Shown: one piece after another, positions 21,583-31,175 of the stretch
Layout: every line of letters starts with the position of its first letter
Position numbering within the stretch: position 1 is the stretch's first letter
Assembly: GCA_027297205.1 (NCBI GenBank)
Contig: JAPUIH010000281.1
Coordinates: 1 to 35,402, forward strand
Direction of reading: 5' to 3'
DNA: 35,402 nt
From: SAR324 cluster bacterium
GTDB taxonomy: Bacteria; SAR324; JACQKK01
Position numbers and translations under genes: made by a program
Notes under the pieces: model-generated
Databases searched by the model: none
What the model was told of the DNA's origin: nothing
What the model saw: only the letters and a program-made list of their open reading frames with translations

Positions 21583-22644
21583 GTGATCATTCAGTACAAC
21601 ACAGGCATATCAGACGAGGAACACCAGAGTGTTTTGGCCAAGCTGAAAGTTTGGGGCTTTCGCGTTCAGCCTAACCCGGGCAGCGAGGGCACCACGCCGG
21701 AAACGCATATCCAGGTGGACAATGTGTTCGGCCCGGTGACTGACCTGCATCGGCGCGAGATCAGCAATTTTGACTGCGTCAGGCAGGTCATCGCCATCGA
21801 GGGCGTTCCGCAAAACCTGGCCCTGCTCCGGCACGGAAAACACCAGGCGGTGACGCTGCCCAATCCCCATGGGGCCAAGCCGGTGCACATTGGAGGGGAT
21901 TACCCCCTGACTGTAATGGCCGGCGTGTGCGCCGTAGACAAGGTGCATACCCTGGCATCCCATCAAATGGCCAAGCGGGCCGGCGCGGACATGAACCGTG
22001 GCGGCGCCTTCAAGCCCCGCACCAGCCCCTACGATTTTCAGGGCATGAAGGAAGAAGGACTGCAGGTGCTGTGCGAGGTACGCGAGGAGGTAGGCCTGCC
22101 CATCGTGAGCGAAATCCTCGATGTGCGCGATATTGACCTGTATATGAAGTACGATGTGGATCTGCTGCAGATCGGTACTAGAAACGCCCAGAATTTTGAG
22201 CTGCTGATCGAGGCGGGCAAAAGCGGCAAGCCCGTTATGTACAAACGTGGCTTTTCCAACTCCATCGATGAATCCCTCAAGGCGGCGAACTACATCATGG
22301 AGCAGGGCAATGAAAATCTCATATTCTGCCTGAGAGGCGTGAAAGGGATTGGTCACAGCTTTCGCAACCAGGGCGATCTGGACGAAATCGTGGCGCTCTC
22401 GCAGGTTATGGCGCGTCCCATCGTCTACGACGTGTCCCATTCCTCGGGCAAGAAATCGGCGGTATCCGGGATCGGCAATATGGCCGCCGCGGGCGGAGTG
22501 GACGGTATTCTGCTGGATGTGCATGTGGCCCCGCAGGAAGCGTTGGTGGATGGCTTCCAGGCCATCGACTCCGAGGAAGAACTGGCGGGAATGATATCCA
22601 CCTGGCGCAAGCTCAGGGATTTGGCCCGCGGCTCGGCGCGGTAG
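21583..22644 (+). CDS. aroF: 3-deoxy-7-phosphoheptulonate synthase (DAHP synthase, AroF/type I-beta), divergent
   Basis: A 353-residue enzyme of the shikimate entry step (PEP + erythrose-4-phosphate), with an N-terminal ferredoxin-like regulatory domain (about 1-72) and the TIM barrel (about 90-345), as in Thermotoga-type enzymes. RGGAFKPRTSPYDFQG (Lys144), QIGTRNAQNF and KRGFSNSIDE are well kept. Metal ligands are Cys116 (AGVCAVD, usually AGPCSVE), His286 (YDVSHSSGKK, usually DPSH) and Asp323. The position normally held by a Glu ligand (VEVHP) is Asp312 (LDVHV), and the usual CERG is CLRG. The enzyme is thus an unusual branch; DAHP synthesis is likely but not certain. GTG start with AGGAAA about 10 bases upstream. 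Confidence 0.85.
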   Translation: MIIQYNTGISDEEHQSVLAKLKVWGFRVQPNPGSEGTTPETHIQVDNVFGPVTDLHRREISNFDCVRQVIAIEGVPQNLALLRHGKHQAVTLPNPHGAKPVHIGGDYPLTVMAGVCAVDKVHTLASHQMAKRAGADMNRGGAFKPRTSPYDFQGMKEEGLQVLCEVREEVGLPIVSEILDVRDIDLYMKYDVDLLQIGTRNAQNFELLIEAGKSGKPVMYKRGFSNSIDESLKAANYIMEQGNENLIFCLRGVKGIGHSFRNQGDLDEIVALSQVMARPIVYDVSHSSGKKSAVSGIGNMAAAGGVDGILLDVHVAPQEALVDGFQAIDSEEELAGMISTWRKLRDLARGSAR

Positions 22645-22709
22645 CCACCTGCCATGGGGCGGCAAACCACAATGGTGCGGAATGGGCTCCGGCCCCTCCG
22701 CCGGGAGCG

Positions 22710-23525
22710 GTGATGAAAGGCTGGATTTACACGCACGACCTGGATCCCATCCTGTTCACCCTGGGACCTCTCTCGGTGGGCTGGTACGGGCTCATGTACG
22801 GTCTCAGCTTCCTGCTCGGCTATTGGATCCTGGTGCGGCAGGCCCGCAAGTACGGTGGGCCCGTATCGGCGGAAGACCACAGCCTGCTCATGACCTACAT
22901 CATCCTTGGTGTGGTGATCGGCGGTCGCCTGGGTTGGGTCATTTTTTATGGCGGTCTGCCTTACCTGTACGAACCCCTGCGTATCTTCCAAGTATGGAAG
23001 GGCGGAATGTCCTTCCACGGCGGTATGTTGGGGGTGGCCACGGCCTGGTGGCTGTTTGCCCGGCGCCACAATATTCACATCGTGACCCTGTCCGATCTGG
23101 TGAGCCCCGTCATTCCCCTGGGATTGATGCTGGGCCGCATCGGCAACTTCATCAATGGGGAGCTTTACGGCAAACCCACGGATGGCAGTTGGGGCGTCAT
23201 TTTTCCGGGCGATGCGGAGGGCCTGCCGCGCCACCCCACGCAGTTGTATGAGGCCTTCGGCGAAGGGCTGCTGCTTTTCGCAGTCTTGCAGATTCTCCGG
23301 CCCTACTTGAAGCGCAAAGGCCTCACCACCGCCTTGTTTCTCGTTGGCTACGGCGTGGCCAGAGCTCTGGTGGAATTTGTGCGCCTGCCCGACCGGGACA
23401 TCGGCTACCTGTGGAAATTCGTCACCATGGGCCAAGCGCTGAGCCTGCCCATGATCCTGATCGGCGGCGCCTGGGCGTTGATCGTACTGATGCGCCCGCA
23501 ACCCCAATCCAGCGATAGCGCCTAG
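22710..23525 (+). CDS. lgt: Prolipoprotein diacylglyceryl transferase Lgt
   Basis: A 271-residue polytopic inner-membrane enzyme that transfers diacylglycerol from phosphatidylglycerol to the lipobox cysteine of prolipoproteins. About seven membrane segments are visible. Key motifs are the N-terminal WYGLMYGLSFLLGYW, GGRLGWVIFYG, the essential SFHGGMLG histidine loop, and the Lgt signature GLMLGRIGNFINGELYGKPT, followed by HPTQLYEAFGEG. The start is GTG 22710 or the adjacent ATG 22713. It lies 65 bp after the DAHP synthase gene on the same strand. Its stop is 9 bp from that of the convergent heptosyltransferase gene. It would process lipoproteins such as the one at 14291-14986. Confidence 0.97.
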   Translation: MMKGWIYTHDLDPILFTLGPLSVGWYGLMYGLSFLLGYWILVRQARKYGGPVSAEDHSLLMTYIILGVVIGGRLGWVIFYGGLPYLYEPLRIFQVWKGGMSFHGGMLGVATAWWLFARRHNIHIVTLSDLVSPVIPLGLMLGRIGNFINGELYGKPTDGSWGVIFPGDAEGLPRHPTQLYEAFGEGLLLFAVLQILRPYLKRKGLTTALFLVGYGVARALVEFVRLPDRDIGYLWKFVTMGQALSLPMILIGGAWALIVLMRPQPQSSDSA

Positions 23526-23534
23526 CGCCCTCCG

Positions 23535-24575
23535 TCAGGCGCCACCGGTGGAGGCGAGCAACCTCTCCGCATGGCTCAGCACTTCCGAAGGGGCGATCTC
23601 CCATAGACAATTGGTATGCCCGAGCGGGCAGACCTGCTTGTAGCAGGGCGAGCAAGACAGGCCGCGGTACAAGACCTCGGCCCGCGTATTGAGGGGCGCG
23701 GTCCAGGCCGGGTTGGAGGAGCCGAACAGGGCAATCTGGGGACGCCGCAACGCGGCGGCGATGTGCATGGCCCCGGAATCGTTGCTCACCAGCAGCGCCG
23801 CGCGCGCAAGCATCGCCACCAGGCCAGGCAGGTCGGTGTCGCCGCAGAGGTTGAGGCCCCGCGGGCTGCCGGAAAGAATCCGGTCGCCTGCTTCGCGGTC
23901 CTTGGCCAGACCGGTCACCACCACCCGCCGGCCTTGATTCTCCAGGGAGGCGGCCAGTTCACGGTAATGATCCAGCGGCCATTGCTTGGCAGGACCAAAC
24001 TCCGCTCCCGGCGCCAACACCACATAATCCTGCAACTCCGCCACGGCCTGCGGCAGATGCGCATCGCACCACTCTTGCTCCGGTTCGAGCAGGGGAAAGT
24101 ATTCCGTATCTCCGTTGTCCCCCCAGATATCGAGCAGACTCAGGTATTCACGTACGAGGTGCACGGAGCGGTGGGCATGGCGGTAGGGCGGTGCCTGGTT
24201 AAGCAGCCAGCCCCGGCCCCCGCCCGCGTAGCCGATCCGCCGCGGCACGCCGCTGCGAAAGGCCATCCATGCCGAGGACAGGCTGGGCGGAAGCACAAAG
24301 AAGTGAGAATATCCCTGGCCGCGCAAATCCCTGCCGAACTTCCCCGGCGGCTGGGTGGGTTTGTGGTAGGGCAGAATGCGCCCCCGGTGGGGCAGGGGCA
24401 GCACCTCAAAACCCTGGCGCACGATCAAATCCACACTGGCATTGGGGAAGCGTGCCATCAGGGCATGCAGAAAGGCGGTGCTCATTAGGAGGTCGCCCAG
24501 CCAGTTCGGCGTGCGGACAAGAATGGAGCTGGGCTCGCCGCCGGCGGGGTGCGCGGTGGCTGGGCGGGCTGTCAT
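23535..24575 (-). CDS. waaF: Glycosyltransferase family 9 protein, probable ADP-heptose:LPS heptosyltransferase II
   Basis: A 346-residue GT-B fold enzyme of family 9. The N-terminal LVRTPNWLGDLLMSTAFLHA is the heptosyltransferase II signature. The nucleotide-sugar site shows VVLAPGAEFGPAKQWPLDHY, and the C-terminal domain shows LVSNDSGAMHIAAALRRPQI followed by ALFGSSNPAWTAP. The ending CSPCYKQVCPLGHTNCL, with its Cys pairs, is typical of WaaF. It would add a heptose to the LPS inner core at the cytoplasmic face of the inner membrane, supporting a diderm host with LPS. It is divergent from the adenosyltransferase gene and not in an LPS cluster here. Acceptor specificity is inferred. Confidence 0.88.
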   Translation of the reverse strand: MTARPATAHPAGGEPSSILVRTPNWLGDLLMSTAFLHALMARFPNASVDLIVRQGFEVLPLPHRGRILPYHKPTQPPGKFGRDLRGQGYSHFFVLPPSLSSAWMAFRSGVPRRIGYAGGGRGWLLNQAPPYRHAHRSVHLVREYLSLLDIWGDNGDTEYFPLLEPEQEWCDAHLPQAVAELQDYVVLAPGAEFGPAKQWPLDHYRELAASLENQGRRVVVTGLAKDREAGDRILSGSPRGLNLCGDTDLPGLVAMLARAALLVSNDSGAMHIAAALRRPQIALFGSSNPAWTAPLNTRAEVLYRGLSCSPCYKQVCPLGHTNCLWEIAPSEVLSHAERLLASTGGA

Positions 24576-24688
24576 TGCGTTTTCACTCCATCCTTCTTAA
24601 CCTGACCGGAACGGTGCGGGGCCAATGCGCTCCGGGTATTTTCCCGGCGCGGGAACACCCGCCCAAGCCCCTGATCCCGGAAGCGGCC

Positions 24689-25294
24689 ATGGTGCGGATA
24701 AACCGAGTGTACACGCGCAAGGGCGACAGCGGCAACACCTCCCTGGTGGGCGGCCGGGCCATCCCCAAAGATCACCTGCGGGTGGAAAGCTACGGCACCG
24801 TGGATGAACTGAACGCATTGCTGGGGATCGTGCGCAGCATCAACAGCGAGAAACCGGTCGACAACCGCAGGGACGGACTGGATAAAATCCTGCAATTGAT
24901 TCAGCAGCGGCTGTTTGACCTGGGGGCGGAATTGGCCACACAGCCCGGTGACGAGTTCAAGGGGCAAGTGCGGGTGGACAAGCAGGACGTGGATTGGCTG
25001 GAGGAAGTGATTGACACCATGAACGAAGAACTGAATCCCCTGGAAAGCTTCGTGCTTCCCGGCGGGGGGCAGCTCAACGCCTTCTTGCACCAAGCCCGAG
25101 TGGTTTGCCGGCGCACGGAGCGCATCGTGGTCACCCTGGGGCGCAAAGAACAGGTGGGCGAGTTCGTGCTGCCCTACTTGAATCGGCTCTCCGATGCCTT
25201 GTTTGTCTTCAGCCGTTGGGTAAGCGCCACCATGGACGAGGCGGAAACACTCTGGCAGCCGGGGTTGGCCTACGACGATTCCTGGCGCTGGTAG
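24689..25294 (+). CDS. PduO-type ATP:cob(I)alamin adenosyltransferase
   Basis: A 201-residue enzyme that makes adenosylcobalamin from cob(I)alamin and ATP. The N-terminal ATP loop YTRKGDSGNTSLVGGR (about residues 8-23) matches the PduO TRxGDxGxT pattern. VESYGTVDELNALLG, FVLPGGGQLNAFLHQARVVC, RRTERIVV and YLNRLSDALFVFSR are all family motifs. The frame is open far upstream, but ATG 24689 gives the correct start. Its presence implies use of B12-dependent enzymes. It is convergent with the PBP1A gene (28 bp between stops). Confident on family; the particular B12 pathway served is unknown. Confidence 0.94.
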   Translation: MVRINRVYTRKGDSGNTSLVGGRAIPKDHLRVESYGTVDELNALLGIVRSINSEKPVDNRRDGLDKILQLIQQRLFDLGAELATQPGDEFKGQVRVDKQDVDWLEEVIDTMNEELNPLESFVLPGGGQLNAFLHQARVVCRRTERIVVTLGRKEQVGEFVLPYLNRLSDALFVFSRWVSATMDEAETLWQPGLAYDDSWRW

Positions 25295-25322
25295 CGCCAA
25301 ATCATCCCAAGAAACAATCCGG

Positions 25323-27749
25323 TTAGAGGCTTTCGTCTTCCTGTGGAAGTTTCACGGAACTTTGCCGATCCCCATTGCGCCGCTTGCGGTAGTTGGGTGC
25401 GACGGTGCGGCCGCAGCCGTTGGAGGAGAGAAACCGTGGGGGAATGGAGGATACCTTGAAGAATTCCAGCCGCGAATCTTCCGCCGTATCGCAGGGCCCC
25501 AGCAATTTCCCGGCCGCACTCACGCGATGGGCCACCACCGTGGGCGGCTGCCGAAAGGTTTCCACGGCCATGGAGCGTTCCACGGCCTGCATGAATTCCA
25601 GCCAAATCGGAGCTGCGGCGCGGCTGCCCGTTTCGGAGGGGCCGAGGGATTTGGACGCGTCGTCGAAGCCCACGTAGACCCCCGCCACAAGCTGGGGGAT
25701 ATAGCCCAGATACCACGCATCGGTGTAATTTTGCGTAGTTCCCGTCTTGCCGGCCGCGGGGCGGTTGAATTCGGAGATCGCCCTGTAGCCGGTTCCCAGG
25801 GGGCGGCGCACCACGTCCTGCAGAATATCTCCCACCAGGTAGGCCGTGGCGTCCGAGATCACTTTTTTCAACTTGAACTCGGCCTTTTCCAGCACCTCCC
25901 CTTGCGCGTTTTCGATGCGCAGGATGTAGATTTGCTCGGCTAGGTTGCCCTTGCCGGCAAACACAGAGTAGGCGCGGGTCAACTCGTCCAGTTTCACCGA
26001 ATGTGTTCCCAGGGCGATGATGCTCTCTTCCGGAATGGCGGTGGACAGGCCGAACTTGCGGGCATACTCGATCACCTTGCGCGCGCCCATCTCCTCCACC
26101 AATTGCACGGTGGGGACGTTACGGCTGCGCATCAACGCCTCGCGCAGGGTGGTGTTGCCCAGGTACTTCTTGTCGTAGTTTCTCGGAATGTGCTTCCTGC
26201 CCGACCGCAACGTGAACACACGCGGGCTGTCCTGAAGAATCGAAGCCGGAGTATAACCCTCGTCAATGGCCGCAGCATAGATGATCGGCTTGAAGGAAGA
26301 GCCGGGCTGCCGCTCGGCCTGGGTGGCGCGGATGAATTCACTGGCGCCGTCCCCGCGCCCAAAGCGGGTTCCACCCACCATGGCCAGTACCTCGCCTGTA
26401 TCCGGATCCATGGCGTACAGGGCGCCGTTGGACTGGGGTTCCTGATACAGGTCCAGGGTGAATTCCCCGCTTTCCGGGTCGCGCCAGGTGGGCTTGACCA
26501 GCACCAGTTCCCCCGGGGCAAGAATGCTGGCAAGATCGTTGATGGGCACCGGCACTTGCTCTTCCTTGGCGTTGAGCTTCAACTGCACCCGCCACTGCTC
26601 GCTCAGCAATTCCCAGGGAATGACACCCTCCAAGGTCAGGCCGAGAGCAATCCGCGCTTCCTCCGCGTTCACGTCCACCACCACGCCCTTCACCACCTGC
26701 CCCAGTTCCACGGCGTGCGGGGCGTTGAGATTTTCCAATACTTCATCGGGCACTTGCTTGAACTGATCCAGTTCAAGTTTCTCTGTGGAGCGGCGATAGC
26801 CGCGGCGCATATCGAGATTACGGACACCGTTGTTGAGCGCCCGGTGCGCGGCCAGCTGATAGTTGAGGTCCATGGCCGTGTAAACACTCAGGCCGCCTTC
26901 ATACAGATTCTTGCTGCCGTATTTTTTCAGCAGGATACGCCGCACATATTCCACGTAGTATGCCACCGCCGCGATGGTGGGATCCTTGCGCTCGGCCAGA
27001 ATGATCGGCTCGGAGGCGGCGGCCATCTGCTGTGTGCGCGTAATAAACCCTTCCTCCGCCATGCGCAACAGCACAATGTCCCGTTGTTGCCGCGCCAAGT
27101 GGGGATTGCGGGTCGGCTTGTAACGGTTTGGGGCCGGAAGCAGCCCCACCAGCACCGCACTCTCCGAAAGACTCAGTTCTTCCACCGGCTTGCTGAAGTA
27201 ATATTCCGCAGCCGCGGCCACCCCCCAGGCATCCCCGAAATTGACCTTGTTAAGGTAGAGGGTAAGAATTTCCTCCTTGGTGAATTCCCGCTCAATCTCC
27301 AAGGCGAGCAGAATTTCCTTCAGCTTCCTCGTCCAGGTCTTTTTCAAGCTGAGAAAGAACTGGCGGGCCGTTTGCTGGGTAAGGGTGCTGGCGCCCTGGG
27401 CGGTCTTCATGGCCAACAGGTTTACCCAGGCCGCCTTGAGCATGCGTAAGGGATCAATTCCCCGATGCTCGAAAAACCGTGCGTCTTCCTTGGCGATCAG
27501 CCCGTTGATGAGATGGTGGGGGAGCTGTTTGTATCCCACCAACTTACGGCGCTTAATGAAGATTTCCTGAACTTTCTTGCCGTTGCGGTCATAGATGGTG
27601 GTGGGCAGGGCGAACTCGGGGTGCTCCAGCCGTTCCACCGGAGGCAGCGTGGAATTAAGGTAGACCAGCACCGAAACCACCAGGGCGAATGCCGCCACCG
27701 CTGCTGTAAGTCCTGTAATTCCGATCCAGCGTGTTACATGCCTGGCCAT
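25323..27749 (-). CDS. mrcA: Penicillin-binding protein 1A (bifunctional class A PBP)
   Basis: An 808-residue peptidoglycan synthase with glycosyltransferase and transpeptidase activities, anchored by a membrane segment at about 11-31. The GT51 domain (about 55-230) has the catalytic Glu88 in IAKEDARFFEHRGID and the GASTLTQQTARQ motif. An OB-like insert (about 330-440) is typical of PBP1A. The transpeptidase domain has SSFK (Ser484 nucleophile), SRN (542-544) and KTG (668-670). Length fits PBP1A (about 800-850). The C-terminus is basic and shows a CxxxE...CG pair of cysteines. It follows the small membrane protein gene by 18 bp, so the two are probably co-transcribed. Confidence 0.96.
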   Translation of the reverse strand: MARHVTRWIGITGLTAAVAAFALVVSVLVYLNSTLPPVERLEHPEFALPTTIYDRNGKKVQEIFIKRRKLVGYKQLPHHLINGLIAKEDARFFEHRGIDPLRMLKAAWVNLLAMKTAQGASTLTQQTARQFFLSLKKTWTRKLKEILLALEIEREFTKEEILTLYLNKVNFGDAWGVAAAAEYYFSKPVEELSLSESAVLVGLLPAPNRYKPTRNPHLARQQRDIVLLRMAEEGFITRTQQMAAASEPIILAERKDPTIAAVAYYVEYVRRILLKKYGSKNLYEGGLSVYTAMDLNYQLAAHRALNNGVRNLDMRRGYRRSTEKLELDQFKQVPDEVLENLNAPHAVELGQVVKGVVVDVNAEEARIALGLTLEGVIPWELLSEQWRVQLKLNAKEEQVPVPINDLASILAPGELVLVKPTWRDPESGEFTLDLYQEPQSNGALYAMDPDTGEVLAMVGGTRFGRGDGASEFIRATQAERQPGSSFKPIIYAAAIDEGYTPASILQDSPRVFTLRSGRKHIPRNYDKKYLGNTTLREALMRSRNVPTVQLVEEMGARKVIEYARKFGLSTAIPEESIIALGTHSVKLDELTRAYSVFAGKGNLAEQIYILRIENAQGEVLEKAEFKLKKVISDATAYLVGDILQDVVRRPLGTGYRAISEFNRPAAGKTGTTQNYTDAWYLGYIPQLVAGVYVGFDDASKSLGPSETGSRAAAPIWLEFMQAVERSMAVETFRQPPTVVAHRVSAAGKLLGPCDTAEDSRLEFFKVSSIPPRFLSSNGCGRTVAPNYRKRRNGDRQSSVKLPQEDESL

Positions 27750-27767
27750 CTGGTTCCGGCCCTCTCC

Positions 27768-28316
27768 TTAGTGCTCCGCAGCCATCTTGGCTTCAAGACG
27801 CGCCTGGCGCTCGGCTGGCTTTTGCTCGGTCAGATACGTGTAGCGGGCTGAAAGAAAAGCATGCATCGCCTCGCCGGATTCTTCCACCTGCACTGCGGCC
27901 AGATAAGCCTCTATGTCCACAGGCAGCTGGACGCTTTCCACTTTCTTCAATTGCGCCACCAGATCGTCCGCGGCCTCTTGCGTGAATCCCAGGACCTCGT
28001 TGTGTACGCCCGCGAAATTGCGCAGTGCCCCATTAAAAACTTCATTGCTGGTATAGGAAAAGGGAAGGCTCGCGCAGCGGCACCGCTCGTCGTGAGGCAA
28101 TTCCGGCCCTTCCTTGCGCCGAAAGCCCTTGCCATACTGAACTCCGTGATCAAACAGGCATGCGCTGGACATCTCCGGCGCCAGGGAAGCCACCACCTGA
28201 AAGCCTTCGATGCGCCGCGCATACACCGGAATCTGGGGCAGCCGGCGCCGCCTCTTTATTCGCAGCACGACTACAAAAGCGACCGCCACCAGCAGCACGG
28301 CCCAAATGGGGTTCAT
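27768..28316 (-). CDS. Membrane-anchored protein with gp7/Mu-F-like Cys/His motif, unrecognised
   Basis: A 182-residue protein with an N-terminal membrane segment (about residues 4-20) followed by a basic KRRRR stop, so most of it is probably cytoplasmic or on the side set by that anchor. The middle carries C53-x2-D56-H57 and H75-x3-C79-x-C81 (SACLFDHGVQYGKGF ... LPHDERCRC). This looks strikingly like the small metal-binding knuckle of SPP1 gp7 / Mu gpF-type phage head proteins (C..C...G..f ... p.H..CRC). The C-terminal 90 residues are helical and charged. A good SD (GAGGGGG) precedes the ATG. It precedes PBP1A by 18 bp. There are no other phage genes, so it is not a prophage remnant by context. 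Function unknown. Confidence 0.78.
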   Translation of the reverse strand: MNPIWAVLLVAVAFVVVLRIKRRRRLPQIPVYARRIEGFQVVASLAPEMSSACLFDHGVQYGKGFRRKEGPELPHDERCRCASLPFSYTSNEVFNGALRNFAGVHNEVLGFTQEAADDLVAQLKKVESVQLPVDIEAYLAAVQVEESGEAMHAFLSARYTYLTEQKPAERQARLEAKMAAEH

Positions 28317-28800: not shown

Positions 28801-29142
28801 ATGGATGGACTTCCAAAGGGGGTCCGCCTCCGCTCCATAAAGGATATCCATCAGGTATTCCGCAAGGGCCGTTACCATGCTCTGGGGATTCTCCACGCAA
28901 AGACGCTTTCCACCGGGCAGGAGCAAACGCGATTCCTGATTTCCGTGAAGAAGGCCATCGGCAGTGCACCCCGGCGCAACCGGATCAAGCGGCTGGTGCG
29001 GGAGGCCATCAGGAAACACCGCAAGGACTTTGCCGCTCCGTACGACATTTGTTTCTTTCTGACCGCGAAACCGCCCAGTCCGTTGCCATACAGCGTCATC
29101 GAAGCCGAGATACAAAAACTGATAAAACGGCTTTCTCAATAA
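28801..29142 (+). CDS. rnpA: Ribonuclease P protein component
   Basis: A 113-residue RnpA, the protein subunit that helps the RNase P RNA bind pre-tRNA. The RNR box [15 protein letters not shown] (about residues 57-71), preceded by SVKKAIGSA, is diagnostic. The [11 protein letters not shown] strand and the helix KLIKRLSQ at the end fit the compact alpha/beta fold. It is of standard length and sits between rpmH and yidD as in most bacteria. Confidence 0.95.
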
Positions 29143-29165
29143 TAATCAGGGCCACAAGATATTCA

Positions 29166-29420
29166 ATGGCAAAAGTACTGATTCTCTCAATCCGGGCCTA
29201 TCAATATCTGATTTCTCCGTTGATTCCTCCATCGTGCCGGTTTTACCCCAGTTGCTCGCACTACGCCGCCCAGGCCATTCGCGATCGTGGTTTGCTGACC
29301 GGCCTATGGTTGACTTTGTTGCGGCTGTTGAAATGCCATCCCTTGCATCCCGGGGGCTTCGATCCCCTGCCTCGTAAGACCCGGGCGCTTGCGCGCCGCC
29401 ACCCAGACGTTACCGCCTAG
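29166..29420 (+). CDS. yidD: Membrane protein insertion efficiency factor YidD
   Basis: An 84-residue protein, normal for YidD, thought to assist YidC-dependent insertion at the inner membrane through an amphipathic helix. It shows the conserved [20 protein letters not shown], then [10 protein letters not shown], and the ending [16 protein letters not shown], with the three family cysteines. The frame is open upstream into rnpA, but ATG 29166 gives the family start. It lies 23 bp after rnpA and 9 bp before yidC. Confidence 0.96.
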
Positions 29421-29429
29421 GGAATCGAT

Positions 29430-31175
29430 ATGGACCAGCGCATGTTTCTGGCCGCCATGCTTTCCATCGCGGTTATATTCGGCTATTACCTGATCTTTCC
29501 GCCCTCTCCCCCCAGGCCGCCGAAACCCCAGCCTCCCGCCTCGCAAAGCGGTGTGGCCATTCAGGACGACCCCGGCGGTCGGCAATCCGCGGGCACGATG
29601 GGCGGAACACCCGCCGCCACCCAGCCCGCCGCGCCGCCGCGGGCAGCCCCGGTCAAGGTGCGTCAGATCAAGGTAGACACGCCTCGCTATACTGCATTGT
29701 TCGACACACGTGGCGCCCGCTTGATCAGCCTCAAGCTGAAGCAATACAAGATGGGCAAAGACTACATCAACTGGGGAGATATCGTGCCTCCCCTCGGCAA
29801 GTACCTGAAAAAACCCCAATTCGACCCCACGGCGACCATGGAAATGGTCAAGGACAAATTGAGCAGGGTCGACCCCCTGGACGTGGTATTCGTGGAGAAT
29901 CAGGCGCTCACGGGGGAGTTCCGCAGAGTCGGGTTTTCCACGGACGTGGAAGAGGTGAAGATATTCAGCGAGGCCGCGCAACCGGGGCGGATTGTCTTTA
30001 CCGGCAGTGCGAAAAACGGGTTGACCCTGCGCAAAATCCTCACGTTTCAGCCTGACTCCTACACCATCAATTATGAAATCCAGGTAATCAACTACGGCAA
30101 GGACACCCCGTTGCTGAGGGTCATGAACCTGTTCGGAGAAGGGCCGGACCCGGGCAGCGACGGAGACAACGTGCGCAGTTACTACGGCCCCATCTTCCGC
30201 GAGGACGGTTCGGTGGACACGGAGAGCGCGGACGGCATTGAGGAAAAGCTGATCGTCCGCGACCCTCAATGGCTGGGTATTACAGCCAATTATTTTCTCA
30301 CCGCCGCCGCCCCGGAATCACGCATCGACCATGGGATGTTTCGCGTGGCGAAGCCCTCGGGCGCCAGGGAAGACGACGAGCCCATCGCCTACTACGGATT
30401 CGAATTACCAGTGGTGAGGCTGAGTCCCGGCAACATGATCTCAGGCGGCGCGCGCCTGTACTTTGGCCCAAAGCAGGTTGACGAACTGACCCGCTTCGGC
30501 AACGGACTGGAAGAATCGATTCAACAGACCTTCGACTGGCTGGGGCCCCTGGCCGATATTCTGCTGGCGATCCTGCACTGGTTTAATGGATACACGGGCA
30601 ACTACGGCCTGGCCATCATCTTGCTCACCGTGGTTGTGAGGGTCGGACTGTTTCCCCTCACTTACAGGGGGATGGTCTCCATGAAGCGCATGTCCAAGCT
30701 GCAACCCAGGGTTAAGGTGCTCCGGGAGAAGTACAAGGACAACAAGGAGCGCATGAACAAGGAAATGATGGACATGTACAAGCGCCACAAGGTGAATCCC
30801 CTCGGGGGCTGCCTGCCGATTTTGGTGCAATTGCCCATCTTTTTTGCACTTTACAGTGCCCTGCTCAGTGCCATTGAGCTGCGGCACGCATCGTTTTTCG
30901 GCTGGATTACGGACCTTTCCGCAATGGACCCGCTATACATTACCCCATTGCTGATGGGCGCCACCATGTTCCTGCAGCAGCGGCTGACCCCGACCACCAT
31001 GGACCCCACCCAGCAACGGATCCTGATGTGGATGCCGGTCATTTTCATGGTTTTCATGTTCAGCTTCCCTGCCGGGCTGGTTCTTTATTGGCTGACGAGC
31101 AACACATTGTCCATATTGCAGCAGCTCATAATCAACCGGGTACATATACCCGAGCCGGTTGAGAAGGAGGGCTGA
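29430..31175 (+). CDS. yidC: Membrane protein insertase YidC
   Basis: A 581-residue insertase of Gram-negative type: N-terminal membrane segment (about residues 5-22), Pro/Ala-rich linker, large periplasmic beta domain (about 70-360), then the conserved five-segment core with NYGLAIILLTVVVRVGLFPL, the cytoplasmic hairpin SMKRMSKLQPRVKVLREKYK, and GGCLPILVQLPIFFALYSAL. The essential hydrophilic-groove Arg is the R of TVVVRVGLFPL. SD AGGGAATCGAT lies before the ATG. It ends the rpmH-rnpA-yidD-yidC operon; the usual jag/mnmE genes do not follow. Confidence 0.97.
   Translation: MDQRMFLAAMLSIAVIFGYYLIFPPSPPRPPKPQPPASQSGVAIQDDPGGRQSAGTMGGTPAATQPAAPPRAAPVKVRQIKVDTPRYTALFDTRGARLISLKLKQYKMGKDYINWGDIVPPLGKYLKKPQFDPTATMEMVKDKLSRVDPLDVVFVENQALTGEFRRVGFSTDVEEVKIFSEAAQPGRIVFTGSAKNGLTLRKILTFQPDSYTINYEIQVINYGKDTPLLRVMNLFGEGPDPGSDGDNVRSYYGPIFREDGSVDTESADGIEEKLIVRDPQWLGITANYFLTAAAPESRIDHGMFRVAKPSGAREDDEPIAYYGFELPVVRLSPGNMISGGARLYFGPKQVDELTRFGNGLEESIQQTFDWLGPLADILLAILHWFNGYTGNYGLAIILLTVVVRVGLFPLTYRGMVSMKRMSKLQPRVKVLREKYKDNKERMNKEMMDMYKRHKVNPLGGCLPILVQLPIFFALYSALLSAIELRHASFFGWITDLSAMDPLYITPLLMGATMFLQQRLTPTTMDPTQQRILMWMPVIFMVFMFSFPAGLVLYWLTSNTLSILQQLIINRVHIPEPVEKEG

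Follow-up and report, generated by a model that had tools for sequence, protein, structure and literature searches.

Gene organization of the locus

Gene X lies on the minus strand of the window (i.e. the whole stretch of 35,402 nucleotides from a SAR324 cluster bacterium that was analyzed) and is directly followed by a gene for a class A penicillin-binding protein (PBP1A). The following features were assigned:

27768..28316, minus strand: gene X, 182 amino acids, a single-copy membrane protein of the SAR324 phylum with a MuF-like knuckle
28263..28307, minus strand: transmembrane helix, residues 4-18, predicted from the hydrophobic stretch (helix 3-23 in the AlphaFold2 model)
28242..28262, minus strand: basic stretch RIKRRRR, residues 19-25, right behind the helix, predicting N-out/C-in
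28056..28211, minus strand: MuF-like knuckle module, residues 36-87 (hhalign against 36 PF04233 proteins, 50 columns; Foldseek with the domain model)
27771..27980, minus strand: helical C-terminal tail, residues 113-182 (model helices 113-127, 135-141, and 149-181)
27764-27769, minus strand: AAGGAG before PBP1A, overlapping the stop codon of X (read directly)
27750..27767, minus strand: gap of 18 bp between X and PBP1A (read directly from the sequence)
25323..27749, minus strand: PBP1A, class A penicillin-binding protein downstream of X (PF00912, 7e-59; PF00905, 1e-30)

PBP1A, comprising the Transgly and Transpeptidase domains, starts at 27749, and X thus ends 18 bp before it, as the original prediction had stated. 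The motifs on which that prediction was built, C53-L-F-D56-H57 followed by H75-D-E-R-C79-R-C81, were read from the translated open reading frame. Two further minus-strand frames, 24572-25300 and 22425-23507, were considered as genes of a PBP1A operon and rejected; such frames overlap well-matched plus-strand genes or have no match and were therefore read as antisense.

Residues 1-34 of X form an anchor and a linker, as judged from the AlphaFold2 model and from charge and hydrophobicity. The N-terminal hydrophobic helix is present in both sequence and model, in agreement with the membrane anchoring predicted earlier. In 44 of the 45 X homologues the flank after the helix was the more positive one, with at most six residues ahead of the helix; the lone exception, truncated by the end of its contig, lacks the anchor. 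Since the C-terminal side is positive (positive-inside rule), we infer that the knuckle lies in the cytoplasm, opposite the enzyme domains of PBP1A, with the N-terminus outside. The cytoplasm keeps cysteines reduced and able to hold metal.

Besides X, 25 open reading frames of the window were given to Pfam; these are a part of its reading frame list, and some are probably antisense rather than genes. No phage family, and in particular no portal, terminase, or head gene, was found among these 25, which bears out the predicted lack of phage genes around X. The tested neighbors of X in the SAR324 families f2-f4 likewise included no portal, terminase, or head gene.

Distribution and conservation of X in SAR324

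Of the 52 SAR324-phylum genomes given to the profile search, 45 contained X, among them members of all 26 genera and all 15 genomes of good quality (in the search of relatives, 45 of 58 genomes were matched). One copy was present in each, except for a single genome in which a further fragment of 32 residues lay on a different contig. None of 350 genomes from five other groups (251, 4, 17, 77, and 1) matched the profile, the search of the SAR324 phylum with the same profile (45/52) serving as positive control. As far as sampled, X thus belongs to the core proteins of SAR324. Many homologues share no more than 17-25% identity with the window protein. A search of the named genome collection with the window protein gave no match; a tighter alignment retrieved 19 SAR324-type loci from it, the records being SAR324-cluster and 'Deltaproteobacteria/Proteobacteria' MAGs. 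No X was found in viral contigs.

Four positions stood out as putative metal ligands among the 45 homologues:

28158..28160, minus strand: C53, putative metal ligand, C in 42/45 and H in 3
28092..28094, minus strand: H75, putative metal ligand, H in 41/45 and C in 1
28080..28082, minus strand: C79, putative metal ligand, 45/45
28074..28076, minus strand: C81, putative metal ligand, C in 42/45 and F in 3

When relatives were checked for loss of these Cys and His residues, all four were found retained in 41 of 45 homologues. H57, which had been part of the proposed pattern, is not conserved: only six homologues have H at this position, while 29 have D. The conserved set therefore consists of C53, H75, C79, and C81, and for these four residues the claim of a pattern beyond chance held. 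Homologue L016 carries Cys at the position of H75, an exchange typical of a metal ligand, which supports the reading as a metal site. In three homologues of one genus (L042-L044), H, L/M, C, and F occupy the four positions and the set is lost. Other conserved residues are G62, which is invariant, as well as F65 and K68 (each 44/45). From this conservation, C53, H75, C79, and C81 probably coordinate a single structural metal ion, zinc being the likeliest.

For eight close pairs of X genes with the ligands kept, dN/dS ranged from 0.10 to 0.23. The highest values (0.58 and 0.30) were obtained for two pairs of the genus that lost the ligands (L042-L044); an eleventh pair was too divergent to score.

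Comparison of X with phage head proteins of the MuF type

No significant model for X was found in Pfam, PHROG, or NCBIfam. Searching the single protein and the 45 homologues against Pfam, PHROGs, NCBIfam, and PADLOC yielded scattered matches, all with E above 0.005. In PHROGs, these concerned 21 families, among them 'head morphogenesis' (E = 0.053) and 'minor head protein' (E = 0.19), with one member each; in PADLOC, one member matched Cas8a (E = 0.038). The MuF model PF04233 matched neither the window protein nor its 45 homologues at E up to 10, whereas phage proteins of the same phylum do match it.

Six X proteins were also compared with 50,697 phage records by tblastn. L029 (genus g16) retrieved five records, all of them annotated as a head morphogenesis protein (one noted as pfam04233), at E of 4-6 over residues 38-95; the other five queries retrieved 17 records in total, none annotated as head protein. 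L029 contains LDS-x-T-x3-C-x3-DGQK, with spacing identical to that in gp29 of Salmonella phage St161. Taken on its own, the tblastn result hints only weakly at a MuF likeness. Among the matches listed when the X domain profile was run against 201 whole genomes (E up to 10), one is a MuF gene (G219:C53, E = 0.2). Four of the better matches were read and set aside, as they look like chance or non-coding frames.

A clearer likeness became evident at the profile level. For this purpose, 36 Phage_Mu_F proteins were gathered from the SAR324 phylum and other groups and compared with the X profile (45 rows) using hhalign. The first alignment reached a probability of 85.6% (P = 5.6e-6), the second 82.0% (P = 1.1e-5), with scores of 42-44 over 50 columns that span a strand, the Cys turn, and the H-C-x-C hairpin. 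Family f1 alone gave 85% and f2 alone 84%, but f3 and f4 together only 24%. In 100 column shuffles, the maximum score was 16.6 compared to 44.1 observed; for the domain alone, the score was 35.1, with a maximum of 21.1 in 200 full shuffles. The profile check proposed for PF04233-type domains thus succeeded between profiles and not with the family model itself.

X and MuF (PF04233; Mu gpF, SPP1 gp7) share a strand, a short helix, a [C]-x3-[DG] turn, and H-x(2-3)-C-x-C, a likeness of about 50 residues in profile-profile and fold comparison. The C, H, C, and C of the C-terminal MuF knuckle act as metal ligands. C53 aligns with the second Cys in the C-x2-C of MuF; at the position of the first, X mostly has P or S. 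The same C-H-C-C set occurs in 17 of the 36 MuF proteins, 16 of which have the extra first Cys. The two differ in several respects: (i) X covers MuF only in its C-terminal half, the alignment reaching only positions ~128-179 of the 207-position MuF profile, and the N-terminal helical half is absent (residues 1-34 of X being anchor and linker); (ii) the spacing is H-x3-C in X and H-x2-C in MuF; and (iii) X is membrane-anchored, host-encoded, and not located beside portal or terminase genes.

Structure prediction pointed in the same direction. AlphaFold2 reached a pLDDT of 92.2 with full-length X and of 92.1 with residues 33-99 on their own. A Foldseek search of predicted viral structures with the domain-only model gave 159 rows at an E cutoff of 10. 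Of the best 50 of these, 20 were unnamed and 30 named; 29 of the named ones were minor capsid, head morphogenesis, MuF-like or MuF fusion proteins, and one was uncharacterised. The top seven, all unnamed and ranking ahead of the named ones, had probabilities of 0.98-1.00 and TM-scores (query) of 0.56-0.61 at E-values of only 0.07-0.17 (best 0.068), which is weak, the domain being very small. In three of the best rows, the rmsd was 2.2-2.4 A over 49-50 columns. The structure prediction called for by the original prediction hence gave a confident domain model that retrieves phage head proteins among the best 50 of 159 rows. When the full-length model was searched against viral structures, the matches were weak, although head proteins made up many of them. 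Foldseek and VIA-align searches of the PDB produced nothing useful for X; the sequence search of solved structures gave one chance-level row for X and, for MuF, two designed proteins, so that no experimental MuF structure was at hand for comparison.

Altogether, the likeness of X to MuF holds at the level of profile and fold and not at that of the family. The originally claimed resemblance to the knuckle of SPP1 gp7 and Mu gpF stood in profile, fold, and one of six tblastn queries, and did not extend beyond the C-terminal half or to a PF04233 match. With the four ligand columns masked, the domain-only score fell to 14.7; the profile likeness therefore leans on these columns. This, the tendency of small zinc-type folds to converge, and the lack of a matching family model favor the alternative that the knuckle arose independently as a small metal-held beta-hairpin and that X is an ordinary SAR324-specific membrane protein. 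Yet 200 shuffles with the ligand columns held fixed reached at most 24.9 compared to 35.1, showing that, although the ligands count most, the arrangement of the remaining columns contributes genuine signal. Convergence also fits poorly with the named fold-search rows being almost all phage head proteins (best 50 of 159), with the strand ahead of the knuckle that aligns as well, and with the agreeing spacing in L029 and St161 gp29. We consider a relationship of X to MuF likely and an independent origin rather unlikely.

Gene neighborhood of X

PBP1A lay directly downstream of X on the same strand in all 32 loci of f1 (8) and f2 (24) with room for it; in f3 and f4, it was found beside X in none of ten loci (the remaining three of the 45 loci end before the position of PBP1A). 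A possible PBP1A start codon overlaps the stop of X by four bases in nine of the 32 loci, and the largest gap is 166 bases. In L042-L044, X overlaps the start of PBP1A, although three of the four ligands are lost there. The link between X and PBP1A is thus lineage-specific: the check in relatives showed a pairing that is strictly conserved within one order and is no phylum-wide rule.

The other flanks of X differ, with rnpA/yidD/yidC in some f1 loci and a DUF218 gene in most f2 loci. In the window, rnpA-yidD-yidC (28801-31175) is divergent from X, likewise in L002 and L007. In f3 (nine loci), X follows a sigma-54 activator, with recN in between in six loci and an NAD-dependent epimerase gene next in three; in the single f4 locus, neither the sigma-54 activator/recN nor the epimerase arrangement was seen. 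The only tie to cell wall synthesis in the f3 loci (L032-L041) is an M23 peptidase, encoded on the opposite strand in some of them.

The position after recN in six of nine f3 loci raises the question of whether membrane-bound X uses its basic stretch and knuckle to bind nucleic acid (DNA or RNA), with nothing special linking it to PBP1A. Besides RIKRRRR, the window protein has a basic knuckle (GKGFRRK, K68 being conserved in 44/45), and SPP1 gp7 is a DNA-binding protein, going by the title of a study cited in the accessible part of PMC6316719. Topology alone, however, explains basic residues behind an anchor, and the recN adjacency is limited to one family; we regard nucleic acid binding of this kind as improbable.

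A role in wall synthesis, as originally suggested, is backed by the strict pairing with PBP1A in f1 and f2. It is weakened by the lack of pairing in f3 and f4 and by the predicted location of the knuckle in the cytoplasm, while PBP1A works in the periplasm. In most loci only some ten residues precede the membrane helix of PBP1A; almost without a cytoplasmic tail, PBP1A offers little for a cytoplasmic domain of X to grip.

Possible role and origin of X

We propose that X is a metal-stabilized cytoplasmic adaptor at the membrane that is tied to PBP1A in f1 and f2, an explanation that, taken as a whole, seems to us evenly poised between right and wrong. The short N-terminal helix would hold X in the inner membrane, leaving the N-terminus on the outside; the basic stretch and a knuckle of about 50 residues, kin of the C-terminal half of MuF, would lie in the cytoplasm, followed by the helical tail. 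Tethered in this way, X may organize partners through knuckle and tail, a role that we put forward tentatively and with somewhat less than even confidence. In f1 and f2, X would be co-expressed with PBP1A and would probably tune the amount, assembly, or position of the synthase, acting on it via the membrane helix or the short tail. That X is a true PBP1A cofactor is possible but doubtful. Against the adaptor and PBP1A reading stand the three genomes of one genus in which X still precedes PBP1A although its ligand set is lost.

Two known systems resemble the proposed role. MacP is a single-pass membrane cofactor of a pneumococcal class A PBP and was likened to X by description, both being small single-pass membrane proteins paired with such a synthase. 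We know of no metal knuckle in MacP, and X differs in not always being paired with PBP1A. GpsB is likened to X by role and not by sequence: the accessible part of PMC6335420 presents the idea of a cytoplasmic adaptor for class A PBPs, in which GpsB binds cytoplasmic mini-domains of its synthases. In contrast, X has a membrane anchor, and its partner PBP1A is almost without a cytoplasmic tail.

As described in the accessible parts of PMC5512222 and PMC3482391, portal-terminase phages have MuF proteins in their heads, and many effector domains occur fused to these proteins. SPP1 can assemble without gp7, but of the virions formed without it only ~25% are infectious, according to the accessible part of PMC6316719. 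The relation of X to such a portal-bound virion protein (same source) could suggest a host decoy, i.e. a membrane-bound half virion protein that blocks the assembly of phage portals or heads or the entry of the phage genome, which is very improbable for a single-copy core gene of every genus with low dN/dS, with no phage or defense genes found around it and no PADLOC match of note.

For the adaptor, our findings suggest a virus-type module put to household use. In the literature searched, no host membrane protein with a MuF-type module was described, nor was there a paper on domestication of MuF as a phage head domain. X is a membrane-anchored core protein, without a family model today, whose knuckle resembles half of MuF yet occurs outside of phages. 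One conceivable, though unlikely, history is that a MuF half-domain was captured before SAR324 diversified, became membrane-anchored, and was later made a cytoplasmic, metal-held cofactor of PBP1A, co-translated in one order; transfer may have occurred in either direction, from phage to cell or from cell to phage. If our reading is true, a virion-type domain persists as a phylum-wide household membrane protein in an abundant uncultured ocean lineage, and X would serve both as a SAR324 marker gene and as a testable candidate for a class A PBP partner of a new kind.

Two further observations were made. Between its two catalytic domains, the PBP1A of the window (25323-27749) gave a weak S1-like/PCB_OB match. 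The window's own genome also contains a single true match to Phage_Mu_F, in an open frame of 90 aa that lies at the end of a contig (L046, G000:C185:7908-8129).
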